Shown piece after piece: positions 11,243 to 59,908 of a stretch of 64,000 nucleotides of DNA. Each line of letters begins with the position of its first letter. Position 1 is the first letter of the stretch. The translations under genes were made by a program, and so were the position numbers. The notes beneath the pieces are model-generated. The model worked only from the letters and a program-made list of their open reading frames with translations. It ran no database searches and was not told where the DNA came from. The DNA comes from Candidatus Scalindua japonica (GTDB lineage Bacteria; Planctomycetota; Brocadiia; Brocadiales; Scalinduaceae). The stretch covers positions 124,001 to 188,000 of the forward strand of contig NZ_BAOS01000022.1 in the NCBI RefSeq assembly GCF_002443295.1, given 5' to 3'.

Positions 11243-12163
11243 TTAGTGTCTATACAGGGCAATAATCTCCTTTGCGATTGACTCCGGACCTTCATGTTCC
11301 TCTGCCTCCAGCCATTGAACATCGGAAAAACCTCTGAACCATGTCATCTGTCTTTTGGCAAACCTGCGGGTATTCAACTTTACCATATCTTTCACATCAT
11401 CCAGGGAAAGTCCGCCATCAAGATATTCAATAACCTCCTTATAACCAAGCGCCTGCTTTGCCTGCTTGCTTAAACCTCTGGGATTATTCAACAAAGATTG
11501 CACTTCGTCAATAAGCCCTTTATCAAACATTATCTCAACCCGTTCATTAATCCTCCGGTACATATCTTCCCTGTCTCGTCCGATACAGATGATCTTAAAC
11601 TGATAACCCTTTCTTTCCTGTTTATTTTTTTTCTGTAGTACAGAAAGAGACTCGCCTGTTATTCTATATACCTCAATAGCACGTATGATACGTCGGAGAT
11701 TGTTCGGATGAAATTCAGCCGCTTTAACAGGATCTATCTTTTGCAGAATATCGTGAACGTGCTTATTACCCTTCTTTTCCGCAAGCTCTTCCAACTCTCT
11801 ACGAATACTCCAGTCTGCTTCAGGACCTTTGAAAATACCGTCAACAAGACCTTTTATATAAAGAGGGCTTCCACCGACAATCAGAAACTTCAGTTCTTTA
11901 CTGCCAGCATTGTTTACCAATGCTTCCACATCATCAACATACTTACCGACACTATAGCTCTCCCATGGATCAATAATATCGATAAAATGGTGCGGAACAA
12001 TCTTCTTCATATCGGGTGATGGCTTTGCAGTCCCAATATCCATTCCACGGTAAAAAAGCATTGAATCCGCGGAGATGATCTCACCTTTAATCATCTGTGC
12101 GGCAATAAACCCGATCTCAGTTTTATCACAGGCCGTTGGCCCGGTAAGTATTGTAATAGTCAT
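11243..12163 (-). CDS. miaA: tRNA dimethylallyltransferase MiaA
   Basis: 306 residues from the ATG at 12163 (a TTG at 12178 is in frame but poorer). It transfers a dimethylallyl group to A37 of tRNAs reading UNN codons. Seen: P-loop TGPTACDKTEIG, the signature GEIISADSMLFYRGMDIGTA, VPHHFIDIIDP, and the tail with NTRRFAKRQMTWFRG. The P-loop has Asp where almost all homologues have Gly/Ser before KT/KS, which is unusual for a nucleotide-binding loop. It is otherwise full length. Confidence 0.93.
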   Translation of the reverse strand: MTITILTGPTACDKTEIGFIAAQMIKGEIISADSMLFYRGMDIGTAKPSPDMKKIVPHHFIDIIDPWESYSVGKYVDDVEALVNNAGSKELKFLIVGGSPLYIKGLVDGIFKGPEADWSIRRELEELAEKKGNKHVHDILQKIDPVKAAEFHPNNLRRIIRAIEVYRITGESLSVLQKKNKQERKGYQFKIICIGRDREDMYRRINERVEIMFDKGLIDEVQSLLNNPRGLSKQAKQALGYKEVIEYLDGGLSLDDVKDMVKLNTRRFAKRQMTWFRGFSDVQWLEAEEHEGPESIAKEIIALYRH

Positions 12164-51859: not shown

Positions 51860-54169
51860 ATGACTCAAACAACTAACAATTTGGCAGCCTATATCTGGTC
51901 TCTGGCCGACCTTTTACGCGGCGATTTCAAACAAAGCCAATATGGCCGGGTGATCTTGCCGTTTACTCTGTTACGTCGCCTTGAAGGGGTACTGGAAGAG
52001 AGTAAAGATGCTGTACTGGCCGAATATGAAAAAGTAAAAAAGATGAACCTACCGGAAGTAGGCGAAGAAAAAAAGCTGTTACGTGCTACCGGAGGTTTAT
52101 CATTTTTTAACACTTCCAAGATGGACCTCTCCAAACTGGGTGAATCCGGTATAAAGGATAACCTGGAATCTTATATTCAGGGTTTTTCCAAAGATGCCCG
52201 TGAGATATTTGAGTACTTTAAATTTGGTGAGTATATCGGACAACTTAACGATGCCAACCTGTTGTATAAGGTTATGCAAAGAGTCAGGACAATGGATTTA
52301 AGCCCTGAGGCAATTTCCAACTATGAAATGGGTCTGGTGTTTGAAGAGCTGATCCGCCGATTTGCTGAAAGCTCTAATGAAACCGCAGGAGAACACTTTA
52401 CCCCGCGTGATATCGTGCGTCTCACCACCTCGCTGGTGTTTATGGAAGATGATGACGCCCTAACCAAAGCGGGCATTATACGCACCATCTACGATCCCAC
52501 AGCAGGTACCGGCGGTTTCCTTTCTTCAGGTATGGAGTATGTGCATGAGTTAAACCCTCAGGCAGTTATGCGTGCCTTTGGCCAGGAGCTCAATCCGGAG
52601 AGTTATGCTATCTGTAAAGCGGATATGCTGATCAAAGGGCAGGACGTCACCAATATCAAATTTGGCAACACTCTTTCCGGTGATCAGCTCTATGCCGATA
52701 AATTTGACTACATGTTATCCAATCCTCCTTTTGGCGTTGATTGGAAAAAGATTGAACAGGATATAAAAGACGAAAATAAGCTCAAAGGTTTTGATGGGCG
52801 TTTCGGCCCTGGGTTACCCCGTGTATCTGACGGATCGCTGCTGTTTCTGCTGCACTTGATCAGTAAATTGAGGGACGCTTCCGAAGGGGGCGCCCGTATC
52901 GGTATTATCCTCAACGGCTCACCTCTATTTACCGGCGGTGCGGGGTCTGGTGAATCGGAGATACGTCGCTATATATTAGAAGCTGATCTATTAGAGGCCA
53001 TTGTCGCACTTCCTGCCGACATGTTCTACAATACCGGTATTGCCACCTATGTCTGGGTGCTGTCTAATAAAAAATCAAAGGAACGTAAAGGCAAAGTTCA
53101 ACTGATTAATGGAGTCAACCTCTATGGGAAAATGCGTAAATCTTTAGGTTCTAAGCGTAATGTAATGGGTGATGATGACATTGCCACCATTACCCGCTGC
53201 TTTGGCAATTTTGATGTGGTCGATGCACGTGAGCTGGATAAGCCGGCAGATACTAAAAGCAACCGTGGACGCCAATCGGAAAACTCGAAGACGGAGGCGC
53301 CGAAAACCTTTGGCAGTAAGATCTTTAACACGTATGAATTCGGCTACCGCCGGATCACCATTGAACGCCCCTTGCGTGAATCCTGGCAGTTCAGTGATGA
53401 ACGCATTGCCGAGCTGCGCTTTGCCCCCAAACCCTTAAACGTGGCTATGAAATGGGCATATGCTGAATACGGAAGCAACTGGACTGACGATATTGATTGT
53501 GACTCTTATGGCGTATTAAGCGAGAACGAAACGGATATTCGCACGCATATAAAAAATCACTTTAGCGAGCTGAAAGAGAAACAGATTAAAGATCTGTTAG
53601 ACATCAAAACCTGGTTAAACCAGAGACAGATACTGTTAAAAGCCAGACAACTGCAACAGATCATTGGTTCAGAACAGCATGACGATATGAATGGTTATGA
53701 TGATGTCATTAAAGGAACAGGTATCAAATTAAAGGCCAATGAGAAAAAACAGATAACTGTTGCCGTCAGTTGGAGGAACCCGGATGCGGAGAAAGTCATT
53801 AAGAAAATCCATAAGGGCAAGGCCAATCCTGTTTACGGATTGTTTAAGGTAGGTGGTGAGGTGGTTGAATACAAAGCAGATGGTGATCTGCGTGATAACG
53901 AGAATGTTGCCCTTGATCCTTCCAGGCCGGTTAACGAAATCAACGAAGCTTACTTTGCCAAAGAGGTACAGCCTCATGTGCCGGATGCCTGGATAGATGC
54001 TGGAAAAAAAGATGAAAAGGATCAGGAGATCGGTATTGTGGGTTATGAAATTCCCTTTAATCGCCATTTCTATGTCTATCAGCCGCCACGAGATCTGGCG
54101 GAGATTGATGCGGATTTGGATAAGGTGAGTGCGGAGATTATGGATCTACTTAAAGAGGTGCATTCATGA
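51860..54169 (+). CDS. hsdM: Type I restriction-modification methyltransferase HsdM
   Basis: 769 residues, longer than the usual 500-550. N-terminal helical domain ([20 protein letters not shown]), SAM site [15 protein letters not shown], catalytic NPPFG in [14 protein letters not shown], and [16 protein letters not shown]. The C-terminal ~250 residues (about 520-769) go beyond the core domain and are typical of long HsdM variants. It makes N6-methyladenine with HsdS and forms the M2S(R2) complex. Confidence 0.95.
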
Positions 54170-54196
54170 TGACGAATTGGCATGGATGTAACATGT

Positions 54197-54283
54197 GTAG
54201 GATGGGCAAAGCGAAGCGTGCCCATCTATCTGTTCCATCAATAACACCCAAAGATGGGCACGGCAAGCCTTTGCCCATCCTAC
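54197..54283. repeat. REP-like inverted pair between hsdM and hsdS
   Basis: GTAGGATGGGCAAAGCGAAG ... GTGCCCATC (54197-54226) and its inverted form GATGGGCACGG ... TTTGCCCATCCTAC (54253-54283). Each unit folds on itself. The same unit occurs six times around the neighbouring RAYT gene. Confidence 0.85.
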
Positions 54284-54302
54284 AGTGTGTGGGGTATTCA
54301 TA

Positions 54303-55659
54303 ATGACGGGTAGATACCAAGCGTATCCGGAGTATAAGGATTCTGGGGTAGAGTGGTTGGGGGAAGTACCAGAACACTGGGATGTAAAAAAATTAAAATT
54401 TATTGCTAATATTCACCCAAGTAACATTGATAAGAAAACAAAGGATGGTGAACTACCAATAGTTTTATGTAATTATACTGATGTTTATTACAATGATTTT
54501 ATTGATAATTCTATAGATTTTATGAAGGCTAGCGCAACAATAGAACAGATTGAGAAATTCACTCTTCAAGCTGGTGATACAATTATCACGAAAGATTCTG
54601 AAGACCCTAATGATATAGCAATACCAACTTTCGTATCTGAGAACATGCCCGGAGTTGTTTGCGGTTATCACCTTTCAGTGATTAGACCTTTTAATAAATC
54701 TTATAGTGCTTATGTTAAGCGAGTTTTTGAATGTGAGTACGCACGTGCATATTTTGCAACAAGATCAAATGGATTAACTCGTTATGGATTGGGGACATAT
54801 GCGTTAGAAAATGTATTTTACCCACAACCTATTAAAGAAGAAGCGGTGGTAATCGCCAATTTCCTTAACCACGAAACAACCAAAATCGATACCCTGATCG
54901 AAAAACAACAACAGCTAATCAAACTGCTGAAAGAAAAACGCCAGGCAGTGATTAGCCATGTCGTTACCAAAGGTTTAAATCCCGATGTCGCCATGAAGGA
55001 TTCTGGTGTTGAGTGGTTGGGGGGGGGTGCCGGAGCATTGGGGTGTTTCTTCTTTAGGTTATTATGCAAACATTTCTACTGGTGCAACTCCTGACCGATC
55101 TAAGAAGGAGTACTGGGGTGGCGATATTCCGTGGATTAAAACTGGAGAAGTTAAATATAAAGAAATTCTTGAAACAGAGGAACATATTACACCAGAAGGT
55201 GTATGTAATTCGGCAGTAACAATTTCACCGCCTGGTACTTTATTGATGGCTATGTATGGACAAGGTGTTACGCGAGGCCGTGTTGCTATATTAGGTGTCT
55301 CCGCAACTTATAACCAAGCCTGCGCAGCGATTACTCCAAAAGAAACAATGTGGAATAAATATTTACGTTATTTCTTTATAGCGGCCTATCATGCAATTAG
55401 AGACGGTGGTAACGAAACAAGTCAGATGAACCTTAATGCAGATATTGTAAGTAAATTTAAGATTACAATACCAGAAATTAATGAGCAGCATCAAATAGTT
55501 AAATATCTAGATTTTGAACTGGAGAGATTTGATAAGTTAATCAAAAAAGCAGTTGATGCTATTAAGTTAATGCAAGAACGCCGCACAGCCCTAATCTCCG
55601 CCGCCGTTACCGGAAAGATAGACGTTCGCAAATGGAAGCCCCCGGAACAAAATAAATAA
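54303..55659 (+). pseudogene. hsdS: Type I specificity subunit HsdS, frame-broken at a poly-G tract
   Basis: The first part (54303-55094) has one target-recognition domain after EYKDSGVEWLGEVPEHW and the central helical repeat (NFLNHETTKIDTLIEKQQQL). It then reads DSGVEWLGGGAGALGCF because of nine G at 55019-55027. The second TRD (VPEHWGVSSLGYYANISTGA ... NEQHQIVKYLDFELERFDKL) is in the +1 frame. Eight G would give one 451-residue protein of normal size. The half-subunit alone may still dimerise, as known for truncated HsdS. Type I hsdS phase variation by poly-G is established in Neisseria (NgoAV). Confidence 0.85.
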
Positions 55660-55662
55660 AAT

Positions 55663-55838
55663 GTAGGATGGGCAAAGGCGATAGCCGTGCCCATCAATCC
55701 AATAAAATAAAATCACACGGGTCAAGAAGACGGTATGGCGATATAAGGGAGATGTTGCGTTATGGTGATCAAATGGGTGGGTGCGGGATGATGGAAGAAG
55801 ACGAATATGATGGGCACGCTTCGCTTTGCCCATCCTAC
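55663..55838. repeat. REP-like pair between hsdS and the RAYT gene
   Basis: One unit GTAGGATGGGCAAAGGCGAT...GTGCCCATC at 55663-55695 and an inverted one GATGGGCACGCTTCGC...CCCATCCTAC at 55809-55838. Confidence 0.85.
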
Positions 55839-55898
55839 ATTTTGCCTACGGTTTGCCCATAATACGGTTTGGTTATTTGGTGTTAATTGAGGTACAAC

Positions 55899-56417
55899 AT
55901 GGAATATCGGCGTTTTTATCAATCGGGTGCGATCTATTTCTTTACGGTCGTGACGGAGAATCGGGAACCTCTATTAATTGATAATATAGAACGGTTGCGT
56001 GCCGCCTTTCGTCTATGTATGTCTCGTTACCCCTTTGAAATTGAGGCGATTGTGGTGTTACCGGATCATCTGCACACATTATGGAAACTGCCTGAAGGTG
56101 ACAAAGATTTTTCCCGACGCTGGATGGTGATTAAACGTAAATTTTCATCCGGCCTTCCCTGTGGGTCTGTAAACGCTTCCAAGGCCAGAAAACGGGAGAA
56201 GGGTATCTGGCAACGGCGTTTCTGGGAACATTATATCCGCGATGAGGAGGATTGGAGAAGACATGTGGATTATATCCACTTTAATCCTGTTAAACATGGT
56301 TATGTTTCTGAACCTCAGGATTGGCCATATAGTTCATATCCTCAAGCTGTTCGTAAGGGTTGGTATGAAACAGACGTATTACGTGAAGAAGATTTCAAAG
56401 ATATGGACTTTGAGTAA
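55899..56417 (+). CDS. REP-associated tyrosine transposase (RAYT)
   Basis: 172 residues. Y1/IS200-like fold: IYFFTVVTENREPLL, HUH site VLPDHLHTLWKLPEGD, IKRKFSSG, and the RAYT hallmark IWQRRFWEHYIRDEEDWRRH then YIHFNPVKHGYV. GAGG precedes the ATG at 55899. It should nick at REP hairpins and spread them. REP units flank it on both sides, so it and its substrates are present together. Confidence 0.93.
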   Translation: MEYRRFYQSGAIYFFTVVTENREPLLIDNIERLRAAFRLCMSRYPFEIEAIVVLPDHLHTLWKLPEGDKDFSRRWMVIKRKFSSGLPCGSVNASKARKREKGIWQRRFWEHYIRDEEDWRRHVDYIHFNPVKHGYVSEPQDWPYSSYPQAVRKGWYETDVLREEDFKDMDFE

Positions 56418-56460
56418 TATGTTGCACCTGGGAGTCTCCGGAACAAAACAAGACGGATTT

Positions 56461-56602
56461 GATGGGCACGCTTCGCTTTGCCCATCCTACGGTTTGCTGA
56501 GGTGCGGCGTGGAATATGACGGTTTTATATAACCGGTACAATCTATTTATTTTCGCTGGTGACAAACAATGTAGGATGGGCAAAGGCGAAAGCCGTGCCC
56601 AC
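56461..56602. repeat. REP-like pair between RAYT and hsdR
   Basis: Inverted unit GATGGGCACGCTTCGC...CCCATCCTAC (56461-56490) and a direct one GTAGGATGGGCAAAGGCGAA...GTGCCCAC (56571-56602). Confidence 0.85.
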
Positions 56603-56622
56603 CACAAAAAACAAGAAATATT

Positions 56623-59600
56623 ATGAATGATAAGTCTACCGAAGGCGTGTTTCAAAACGAAATGATCAACCAACTGGTCACCAACGGCTGGTTGTTGGGT
56701 AAGCCTGAAAACTATAACCGTGATCTGGCTCTGTATGAAGAGGATTTGCTGGGTTTTGTTAAAGAGACGCAGGATGGTCAGTGGCAGAAATTTCGCAAAT
56801 TATACCCCAATAATCCTGAGCAGAAGTTTTTAGAGCGTGTTGCTTCACAGCTGAATAAAGCTGATCCCAATGCCGCCAATAAGGAGATGCGTACCTTTGG
56901 CACCTTAGGTGTATTGAGACATGAACTGCGTGATCGCGGCACCCGTTTCAGCCTATGCCAGTTTAAACCGGAGCATGATCTGAACCCGGATACGCTTGCG
57001 CGTTATAAAGAAAACCGTCTACGTGTAGTTCCTGAGTTGGTGTATAGCCCCTGGGCTGATATTTCTGCCCCATCCCAACCTTCCCCCGAAGGGGAAGGTG
57101 ACGAACACCTTGCTCAGACAGGCACAAAAGCCAGGGCATGGCGCATTGATCTGGTATTGTTTATCAACGGATTACCCATAGCAACCCTAGAGTTGAAATC
57201 AGAATTTAAACAGGCGGTACACAATGCCATTAAACAATATAAAACTACCCGTTTTCCCGTTGATCCGGTCACCAAAAAACCTGAACCACTGTTAACCTTT
57301 AAACGCGGCGCTTTGGTCCACTTTGCTGTAAGCCAATACGAGGTGTTTATGACGACACACCTTGAAGGAGAAGAGACTTTCTTTCTGCCGTTTAATAAAG
57401 GTACCAAAGAGGGTGGCGCCGGTAATGATACTCCTGAAGATGTTAACCGGTATGCAACCGATTACTTGTGGAATGATGTTTTACTGCCGGATAATCTGTT
57501 AAATATTCTTGCCCGTTACGTACATCTACAGATTGAAGAGAAAGAGGATTGGGAAGGGCGTAAATCTAAGGTAGAAACGATGATATTCCCCCGTTATCAT
57601 CAGTGGGATGTGGCCAACAAACTCATAGATGCGGCTCGTACCGAAGGTCCGGGGAATAAATACCTGATCCAGCACAGTGCCGGTTCGGGGAAATCTAACT
57701 CGATTGCATGGACGGCCCATCAGTTATCATCACTCTATAATCAGGCAGGAAACAAACAGTTTGATTCGGTGATTATCGTAACTGATAGAAACGTGCTGGA
57801 TGCCCAACTGCAGGATACTATCTACCAGTTCGAGCATGTGGATGGTGTGGTAGGTAGAATCAACAAGGAAGAGGGTGATGGGTCAAAATCTGAAAAACTG
57901 GCCTCTGCCCTGGAAAGCTCACAACCCATTATTATTGTCACGATTCAAACCTTTCCCTTTGTATTAAAAGCGATTGAAAACAGCGTTAGCCTGAAGAAAC
58001 GAAACTACGCGATAGTTGCCGATGAGGCCCATTCTTCACAAACCGGATCTACAGCACGGCAATTGAAAGAGGTGTTGATGATTGAAGGAGGCGCTGAAGA
58101 GGAACTGACAGCAGACGATATACTGGATGCTGCTGTTGCCTCACGTCGCGCTTCCCGTAATCTCAGCTATTTTGCCTTTACGGCAACACCAAAAACCAAA
58201 ACTCTGGAACTGTTTGGCCGTCTACCGAAGCCGGATGAACCACCTTCTAAAACCAATTTGCCGGAATCCTATCATGTATACAGTATGCGTCAGGCGATTG
58301 AGGAAGGTTTTATTCTGGATGTATTGAAAAATTACACCAACTATAAAGTTGCCTATAACCTGGCGTTGGCCATTCAGGGCAAAGATCAGGAAGTGGAAAG
58401 CAAAAAAAGCCAAAGTGAAACTCAACCAATGGGTGCGGCTGCATGACTATAATATTTCACAAAAGGTGCAGGTGATCATTGAACATTTCAGGGATAATGT
58501 GATGGGGCTGTTAGGAGGACAGGCGAAAGCAATGGTGGTGACCAGTTCCCGTAAAGAGGCTGTTCGTTATAAATTGTGCTTTGATAAATATATTACCGAG
58601 AAGGGTTATCAAACCATCCATGCCATGGTGGCTTTCTCCGGTGAGGTGGAGTTTAACGAGAATGATCCAAACACTGAAGGCTTGATTGGAGAAAAGTTTA
58701 CCGAAAACAATATGAATCCTGATCTTAAAGGTCGTGATATGCGTAAGGCATTTGAGTCTAAGGATTATCAGGTGATGATAGTCGCTAATAAATTTCAAAC
58801 CGGTTTTGATCAGCCCAAGCTATGCGCCATGTACGTGGACAAGAAACTCGGTGGTGTTGAGTGTGTGCAGACACTGTCTCGCCTGAATCGTGTCTATCCT
58901 GGAAAATCTGATAGCGGGACATTTGTTTTGGATTTCTTTAATGAGCCGGAAGATATTCTTGAATCTTTCAAACCGTACTATCAAACTGCAGAGCTGGCGG
59001 ATGTATCCGACCCTGATCTGATCTTTAATCTGTTTGATAAGCTGCGAGCTGCCGGTATTTTCCAATGGTCTGAAGTAGAACAGTTTTGCGAGGCATTTTT
59101 CAAAAAGAGTAAAAGTAATGCGGCAATAACCAATATCTGCAAACCTGCAGTAGAGCGTTGGAAGATTCGCTATAAATCTGCTGTGGAGGCATATAAACAA
59201 GCCAAAGAAATATTTGATCGCACCAAAACAAGTGCTGATCCGGTATTAATTGCCAATGCGGAAAACAGCCTTAAGGAGTGTAAAAGAGAAAAAGATGCTC
59301 TGGATATATTCAAAAAGGACTTGGGCACTTTTGTTCGTTTTTACGAGTTTATGTCGCAGATTGTTGATTATGATGATAAGGATTTAGAAAAGCTGAGCTT
59401 ATTCGCACGTAATTTACGCCCTATGTTGCGCGAATCGGCAATCGACGATGATGACATTGATTTGCATAGCGTAGAATTAAGCCACTACAGGCTGACAGCC
59501 ATTCGCCAGCAGAACCTGAGTATTAGTGATAACATCGTGGAATATAAACTGGTGCCCGGAGAAGGGGTGGGTACAGCAAAAGCCAGAGATAAGAAAGAAG

Positions 59601-59908
59601 AGTTAATGTCACAGGTCATCAGTCGTTTGAACGAACTGTTTATCACCGATCAACTCACCGATAATGATCTGGTGAATTATGCCTATACTATCAGAGATAA
59701 GGTCAGAGAAGATGAACTGGTCATGAAGCAGATTACAAATAATACCCCCGAACAGGCAATGTTGGGAGATTTCCCCAAAGCAGTTGATAACGCAGTGATG
59801 GACAGCAGCGAAGCGCATCAAAATCAGATGATGCAACTGTTGTCTGATCCTTCAAAAGCAGCAGGTTTTGCCCGGGTGGTGTTTGATCTGTTGAAATTGG
59901 CAGGTTAA
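56623..59908 (+). pseudogene. hsdR: Type I restriction endonuclease subunit HsdR, one frameshift
   Basis: Nuclease domain with IDLVLFINGLPIATLELKSE (D...ELK), then the helicase: Walker A QHSAGSGKSNSIAWTA, VIIVTDRNVLD, DEAH in IVADEAHSSQTG, YFAFTATPKTKTLELFG, and in the second part VIVANKFQTGFDQPKL with QTLSRLNRVYPGK. The frames (56623-58446, then from 58409) join if one A of the seven at 58402-58408 is dropped, giving 1094 residues, a normal HsdR length. As called the protein lacks half the helicase and could not translocate DNA. Confidence 0.9.

Follow-up and report, generated by a model that had tools for sequence, protein, structure and literature searches.

In Candidatus Scalindua japonica the hsdS gene of a type I restriction-modification (R-M) operon appears, on balance, to encode an ordinary specificity subunit with two target-recognition domains (TRDs), whose slippery G run has been recorded one base too long, either through an error in the consensus or through a one-off, unselected slip. 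The gene lies in a 64-kb stretch of DNA (64,000 nucleotides, hereafter the window) of a 4.81 Mb genome that comprises 47 contigs and encodes hydrazine synthase. The initial annotation had read the run as a likely phase-variable switch of methylation specificity. The anatomy on which that reading was built is as described; a length error or a chance slip is, however, probably the likelier explanation than a true genetic switch. The evidence comes from the anatomy of the gene, from the sequence of its orthologues and from homopolymer frameshifts elsewhere in the assembly.

The operon holds hsdM, hsdS and hsdR together, each with the domains expected of it by Pfam and PADLOC, and both hsdS and hsdR are split by a frameshift (Table 1). 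HsdM, which is matched by the PADLOC model MTase_I with an E value of 9e-276, is 93% identical to its counterpart in the sister genome G009, with a dN/dS of 0.083. A REP-associated tyrosine transposase (RAYT) and REP-like palindromes are found within the operon; six of the seven copies of the palindrome core found in a 1.24 Mb sample of the genome fall there, and the orthologous operons have palindromes as well.

Table 1. Features of the type I operon and of the other loci compared. Positions are those of the window unless a locus (L) is named.
Feature	Position	Strand	Remarks
Type I R-M operon: hsdM, hsdS, RAYT with REP-like palindromes, hsdR	51860-59908	+	Pfam, PADLOC
hsdM, type I N6-adenine methyltransferase	51860-54169	+	Intact, 769 aa; Pfam HsdM_N, N6_Mtase
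hsdS 5′ part: TRD1 (N-terminal) and central conserved region	54303-55094	+	263 aa
G9 tract in hsdS	55019-55027	+	Breaks the frame; hsdS would be continuous at G8
hsdS 3′ part: TRD2 and C-terminal conserved region	55006-55659	+	Pfam Methylase_S, E 1.3e-19
RAYT, between hsdS and hsdR	55887-56417	+	Pfam Y1_Tnp
REP-like palindromes, core TAGGATGGGCAAAG	54198, 54269, 55664, 55824, 56476, 56572		Within the R-M operon
hsdR 5′ part (nuclease and translocase motor)	56623-58446	+	607 aa, frameshift-closed; Pfam HSDR_N, ResIII, SWI2_SNF2
A7 tract in hsdR	58402-58408	+	A6 in G009 and G016, frame open across the site
hsdR 3′ part	58349-59908	+	Pfam T1R_D3-like; 92% identical to G009 HsdR
PilM-like gene, apparent A8 split	10305	-	
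N-acyl-D-amino-acid deacylase-like gene, A8 split	41207	-	G004 orthologue (L193) open across the site
RNase R, two frameshifts	L098 10094 and about 11254-11268, contig C28	-	Second at A8; first adjoins an A8/A7 stretch
Large PASTA-repeat surface-type protein, G9 split	L086 10677-10685, contig C14		
VWA-domain protein, G8 split	L094 15117-15124, contig C24	-	G008 has G7 here, in frame
DarT-DarG pairs (G008, G016 and G021 loci)	L056 9335-10934, L057 5805-7535, L055 8992-10783		

The run of nine Gs is the sole G or C run of at least eight bases in the window and lies, as initially annotated, at the start of the second recognition half, where the frame breaks within WLG-x-VPEHW, the motif that opens TRD2. 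This motif opens both halves of the M. jannaschii S subunit 1YF2, at about residues 12 and 218. With G9 the frame from the ATG at 54303 runs for 263 codons to a stop at 55092-55094, its final 23 or so residues being out of frame; the product is thus the half-length HsdS that had been described, with 263 residues rather than the 264 first given. When G8 is substituted the computed frame continues to 55659 and comprises 451 codons, which agrees with the complete 451-residue HsdS claimed for this length. The N-terminal half retains TRD1 and the central conserved region and shares 45% identity with the corresponding half of the intact G009 HsdS. The 3′ part has an open frame of 217 residues from a GTG at 55006, where translation may start, with an AAGGA five bases upstream, and its match to the PADLOC model Specificity_I covers positions 231-433 of 434. 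Both halves align to the intact two-TRD HsdS of G009 and G021, giving two TRDs and two conserved regions.

To place the tract we compared four related genomes of other species that carry the same operon family (G008, G009, G016 and G021). HsdS is intact in G009 and G021, and that of G009 aligns with 1YF2 from end to end. The long G run at the TRD2 boundary is absent from all four orthologous hsdS loci. The G009 sequence at the tract site is GGGGGAGG, and over the TRD2 boundary it is TTGGGGGAGGTGCC; a single A-to-G change in the former, in the WLG-E codon, gives an in-frame G8, and one further G gives the recorded G9. Since a consensus error would not change A to G, we take a run of G8 or longer to be real and its exact length alone to be doubtful, and we infer that the usual or true length is G8. 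The substitution at the TRD2 boundary would then have produced a G8-like run while keeping the 451-residue frame, and the ninth G would be either a homopolymer misjudged in the consensus or a single slip that was never selected. The functional HsdS would be the full-length protein, which would assemble with HsdM into M2S.

The anatomy is also a close match to that of NgoAV from Neisseria gonorrhoeae, in which a G tract lies at the end of hsdS1 and a tract shorter by one G joins hsdS1 to hsdS2, changing the recognised motif from GCAN8TGC to GCAN7STCA (PMC9577141). This precedent accords with the general point made initially, that tract-length change is an established route to altered type I specificity. 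The two systems share a gene set of hsdM/hsdS1/hsdS2/hsdR, a G tract where the first hsdS half ends, and fusion of the halves on removal of one G; as expected of an NgoAV-like hsdS, the homopolymer at the junction has adjacent lengths that differ in frame, G8 keeping the frame open and G9 closing it. With slippage between these lengths, S. japonica would alternate between two products: a full HsdS, whose motif is bipartite and asymmetric, and an N-terminal half, which either pairs with itself to methylate a palindrome built from the TRD1 half-site or has no activity. Truncated S subunits of the type IC systems EcoR124I and EcoDXXI are active as homodimers (PMC3874165), and like them the N-terminal half in S. 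japonica has TRD1, together with a putative dimerisation helix that may be able to pair with itself; those subunits, however, were engineered or transposon-made, and half-S homodimers are documented only for type IC, whereas the S. japonica system is assigned to type I at large. For NgoAV both length variation and specificity change were measured in strains, whereas S. japonica is known from a single consensus, the one assembly of the species, in which tract-length variation cannot appear. A switch of this kind would be expected to keep its tract in related strains or species; that of S. japonica is not shared by the orthologues in four other species, and its hsdR is frameshifted as well.

Two other ways of altering HsdS were considered. 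The half-length HsdS of G008 (L056 7627-8343) belongs to the same operon family, but it arose by loss of TRD1 between two WLG-VPEHW repeats and not through a homopolymer; its TRD2 is 93.7% identical to residues 223-443 of the G009 protein. In systems of the SpnD39III type, invertible or recombining hsdS genes likewise change type I specificity (PMC7394358). Unlike these, S. japonica was seen to have neither a second hsdS copy nor inverted repeats beside its hsdS, and no recombinase there other than the RAYT.

A search of approximately 85,000 species genomes for long runs of G at the WLG motif of hsdS matched 17 stretches. Judged by translation, only one of these is hsdS, that of Methanogenium cariaci (L039), which has an in-frame G8 but two frame breaks elsewhere; the tract at this motif does not recur in intact hsdS across the genomes searched. 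Within the S. japonica genome there are 37 G8, 12 G9, 7 G10 and 2 G11 tracts, against 29, 6.5, 1.4 and 0.3 expected from a dinucleotide model. G9 tracts are therefore modestly above chance and are chiefly intergenic; coding sequence holds approximately four, and two of these coincide with a frame break. We considered this excess as evidence for contingency loci and dropped it, as it is modest and mostly outside genes.

Coding tracts give a different view. A 1.24 Mb scan for frame junctions placed 3 of 14 coding G or C runs of at least eight bases at frame breaks, compared with 8 of 222 runs of 5-7 bases (Fisher p = 0.02), these being rough rates as the scan had no homology requirement and also caught ordinary gene boundaries. 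IS elements often use programmed frameshifts, and matches to IS-like transposases (A9, A10) were set aside for this reason. The three long runs are those in hsdS and in the genes for the PASTA-repeat and VWA-domain proteins, and the surface-type character of the latter two agrees with phase variation, as does the enrichment itself; slippage in the cell and homopolymer miscalls nevertheless predict the enrichment equally. The orthologues of the VWA gene form one open frame of approximately 700-720 codons, while the PASTA-repeat protein has no close orthologue among the 15 relatives searched. A wider contingency system, in which G-tract slippage would switch type I specificity together with at least these two surface-type proteins, is in our judgement very unlikely.

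Frame breaks of this kind also occur at long A tracts, in housekeeping genes. Proteins of relatives were aligned to approximately 147 kb of the S. japonica genome, RNase R and the VWA protein having been deliberately added to the queries, and all six clear frameshifts lay within homopolymers of at least seven bases (A7, A8, A8, A8, A10 and G8); the reverse comparison, over approximately 146 kb of relatives' DNA, gave one credible frameshift. A low frameshift rate obtained from a comparison of 57 ORFs was discarded, the sample being too small, and is superseded by these alignments. RNase R is broken twice; in most of the relatives searched, its C-terminal part falls within an open frame of approximately 700 or more codons. 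A deacylase-like gene, a sigma-54 response regulator and, apparently, a PilM-like gene are split at A8 tracts, these names being assigned from sequence by inspection. As RNase R is not a plausible subject of phase variation, the most economical explanation common to these breaks is a problem with consensus length or slippage without selection, and the A-tract breaks in housekeeping genes tip the balance away from a switch.

For the step from tract to likely phase variation the positive support extends no further than tract length. The tract does lie at the TRD1/TRD2 boundary, much as in NgoAV, and in a genus whose coding G tracts are able to change in length; the four orthologues without the tract and its failure to recur at the WLG motif speak against a switch. 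With homopolymer frameshifts in RNase R (twice) and in the genes for the deacylase, response regulator, VWA protein and HsdR, an error in consensus length is a simpler explanation than a switch in hsdS. G009 too has a few homopolymer frame breaks, and a comparison of A/T run lengths with G009 revealed no shortening in the S. japonica assembly, which is therefore not a clear outlier, its error rate not being extreme. One G009 break, at a G7 tract (L054 11249), falls in a gene that lies approximately 2 kb beyond the downstream end of the R-M operon.

The break in hsdR, which the initial annotation had omitted, falls at an A7 tract, whereas the G009 gene is a single open frame of 1098 aa. An excess base in hsdS is in keeping with this A7 in place of A6 in the same operon, and with G8 in place of the G7 of G008 in the VWA gene. 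Two observations argue against the favoured reading: two broken genes in one operon are more clustered than uniform error predicts, with an estimated probability of approximately 6%, and the sign of the errors is mixed, the A8 sites being short of one base while hsdS, hsdR and the VWA gene have one extra. The dN/dS values against G009 are 0.075 and 0.079 for the 5′ and 3′ parts of HsdR, indicating strong purifying selection like that on HsdM and giving no sign of a lasting loss of function, so that any break is recent, and the one in hsdR is either recent or not real.

Two broken genes could also mean a fixed, real frameshift in a decaying locus, with hsdS and hsdR both pseudogenes. The orthologous loci are indeed often damaged, with hsdM split, hsdS half-length and hsdR disrupted in G008, hsdM 5′-truncated and hsdR split in G016, and hsdR reduced to its first 86 residues in G021; of the four only the G009 locus looks complete. 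There is, however, no relaxed selection in hsdM or in either part of hsdR, and no further damage was found in the operon of the window, where decay would be expected to leave stops and non-homopolymer indels. Given two broken operon genes and an error rate that is not extreme, we keep both alternatives in consideration, regarding an NgoAV-like switch as unlikely and decay as distinctly unlikely. The relatives also differ in a DarT-DarG pair: G008 and G016 carry it in the interval from hsdS to hsdR, G021 carries it upstream of hsdM, and there is none at the corresponding place in the window or in G009.

It could also be that the recorded G9 is correct and that the frame is bridged or complemented, either by RNA polymerase slipping on the tract or by separate translation of TRD2 from the GTG at 55006, in which case two half subunits would rebuild the original specificity. 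Only when the tract is G9 does this GTG, with its upstream AAGGA, share the TRD2 frame, and in EcoDXXI wild-type activity returned when the N- and C-terminal halves of S were expressed together (PMC3874165). The stretch AAGGATTCTGG, however, encodes the conserved KDSG motif too and is present in the first copy, so that the AAGGA match may be due to chance; we consider bridging or complementation highly improbable.

No account of phase variation in the anammox lineage came up in a limited literature search. If true, the G8/G9 switch would be an NgoAV-type change of specificity in an uncultured, slow-growing anammox lineage, and the wider contingency system would add the Brocadiales to the groups with phasevarion-like control. 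For the reading that we favour, an ordinary HsdS with a run recorded one base too long, the lesson is that homopolymer frameshifts seen in a single consensus should be checked against housekeeping genes before phase variation is called.
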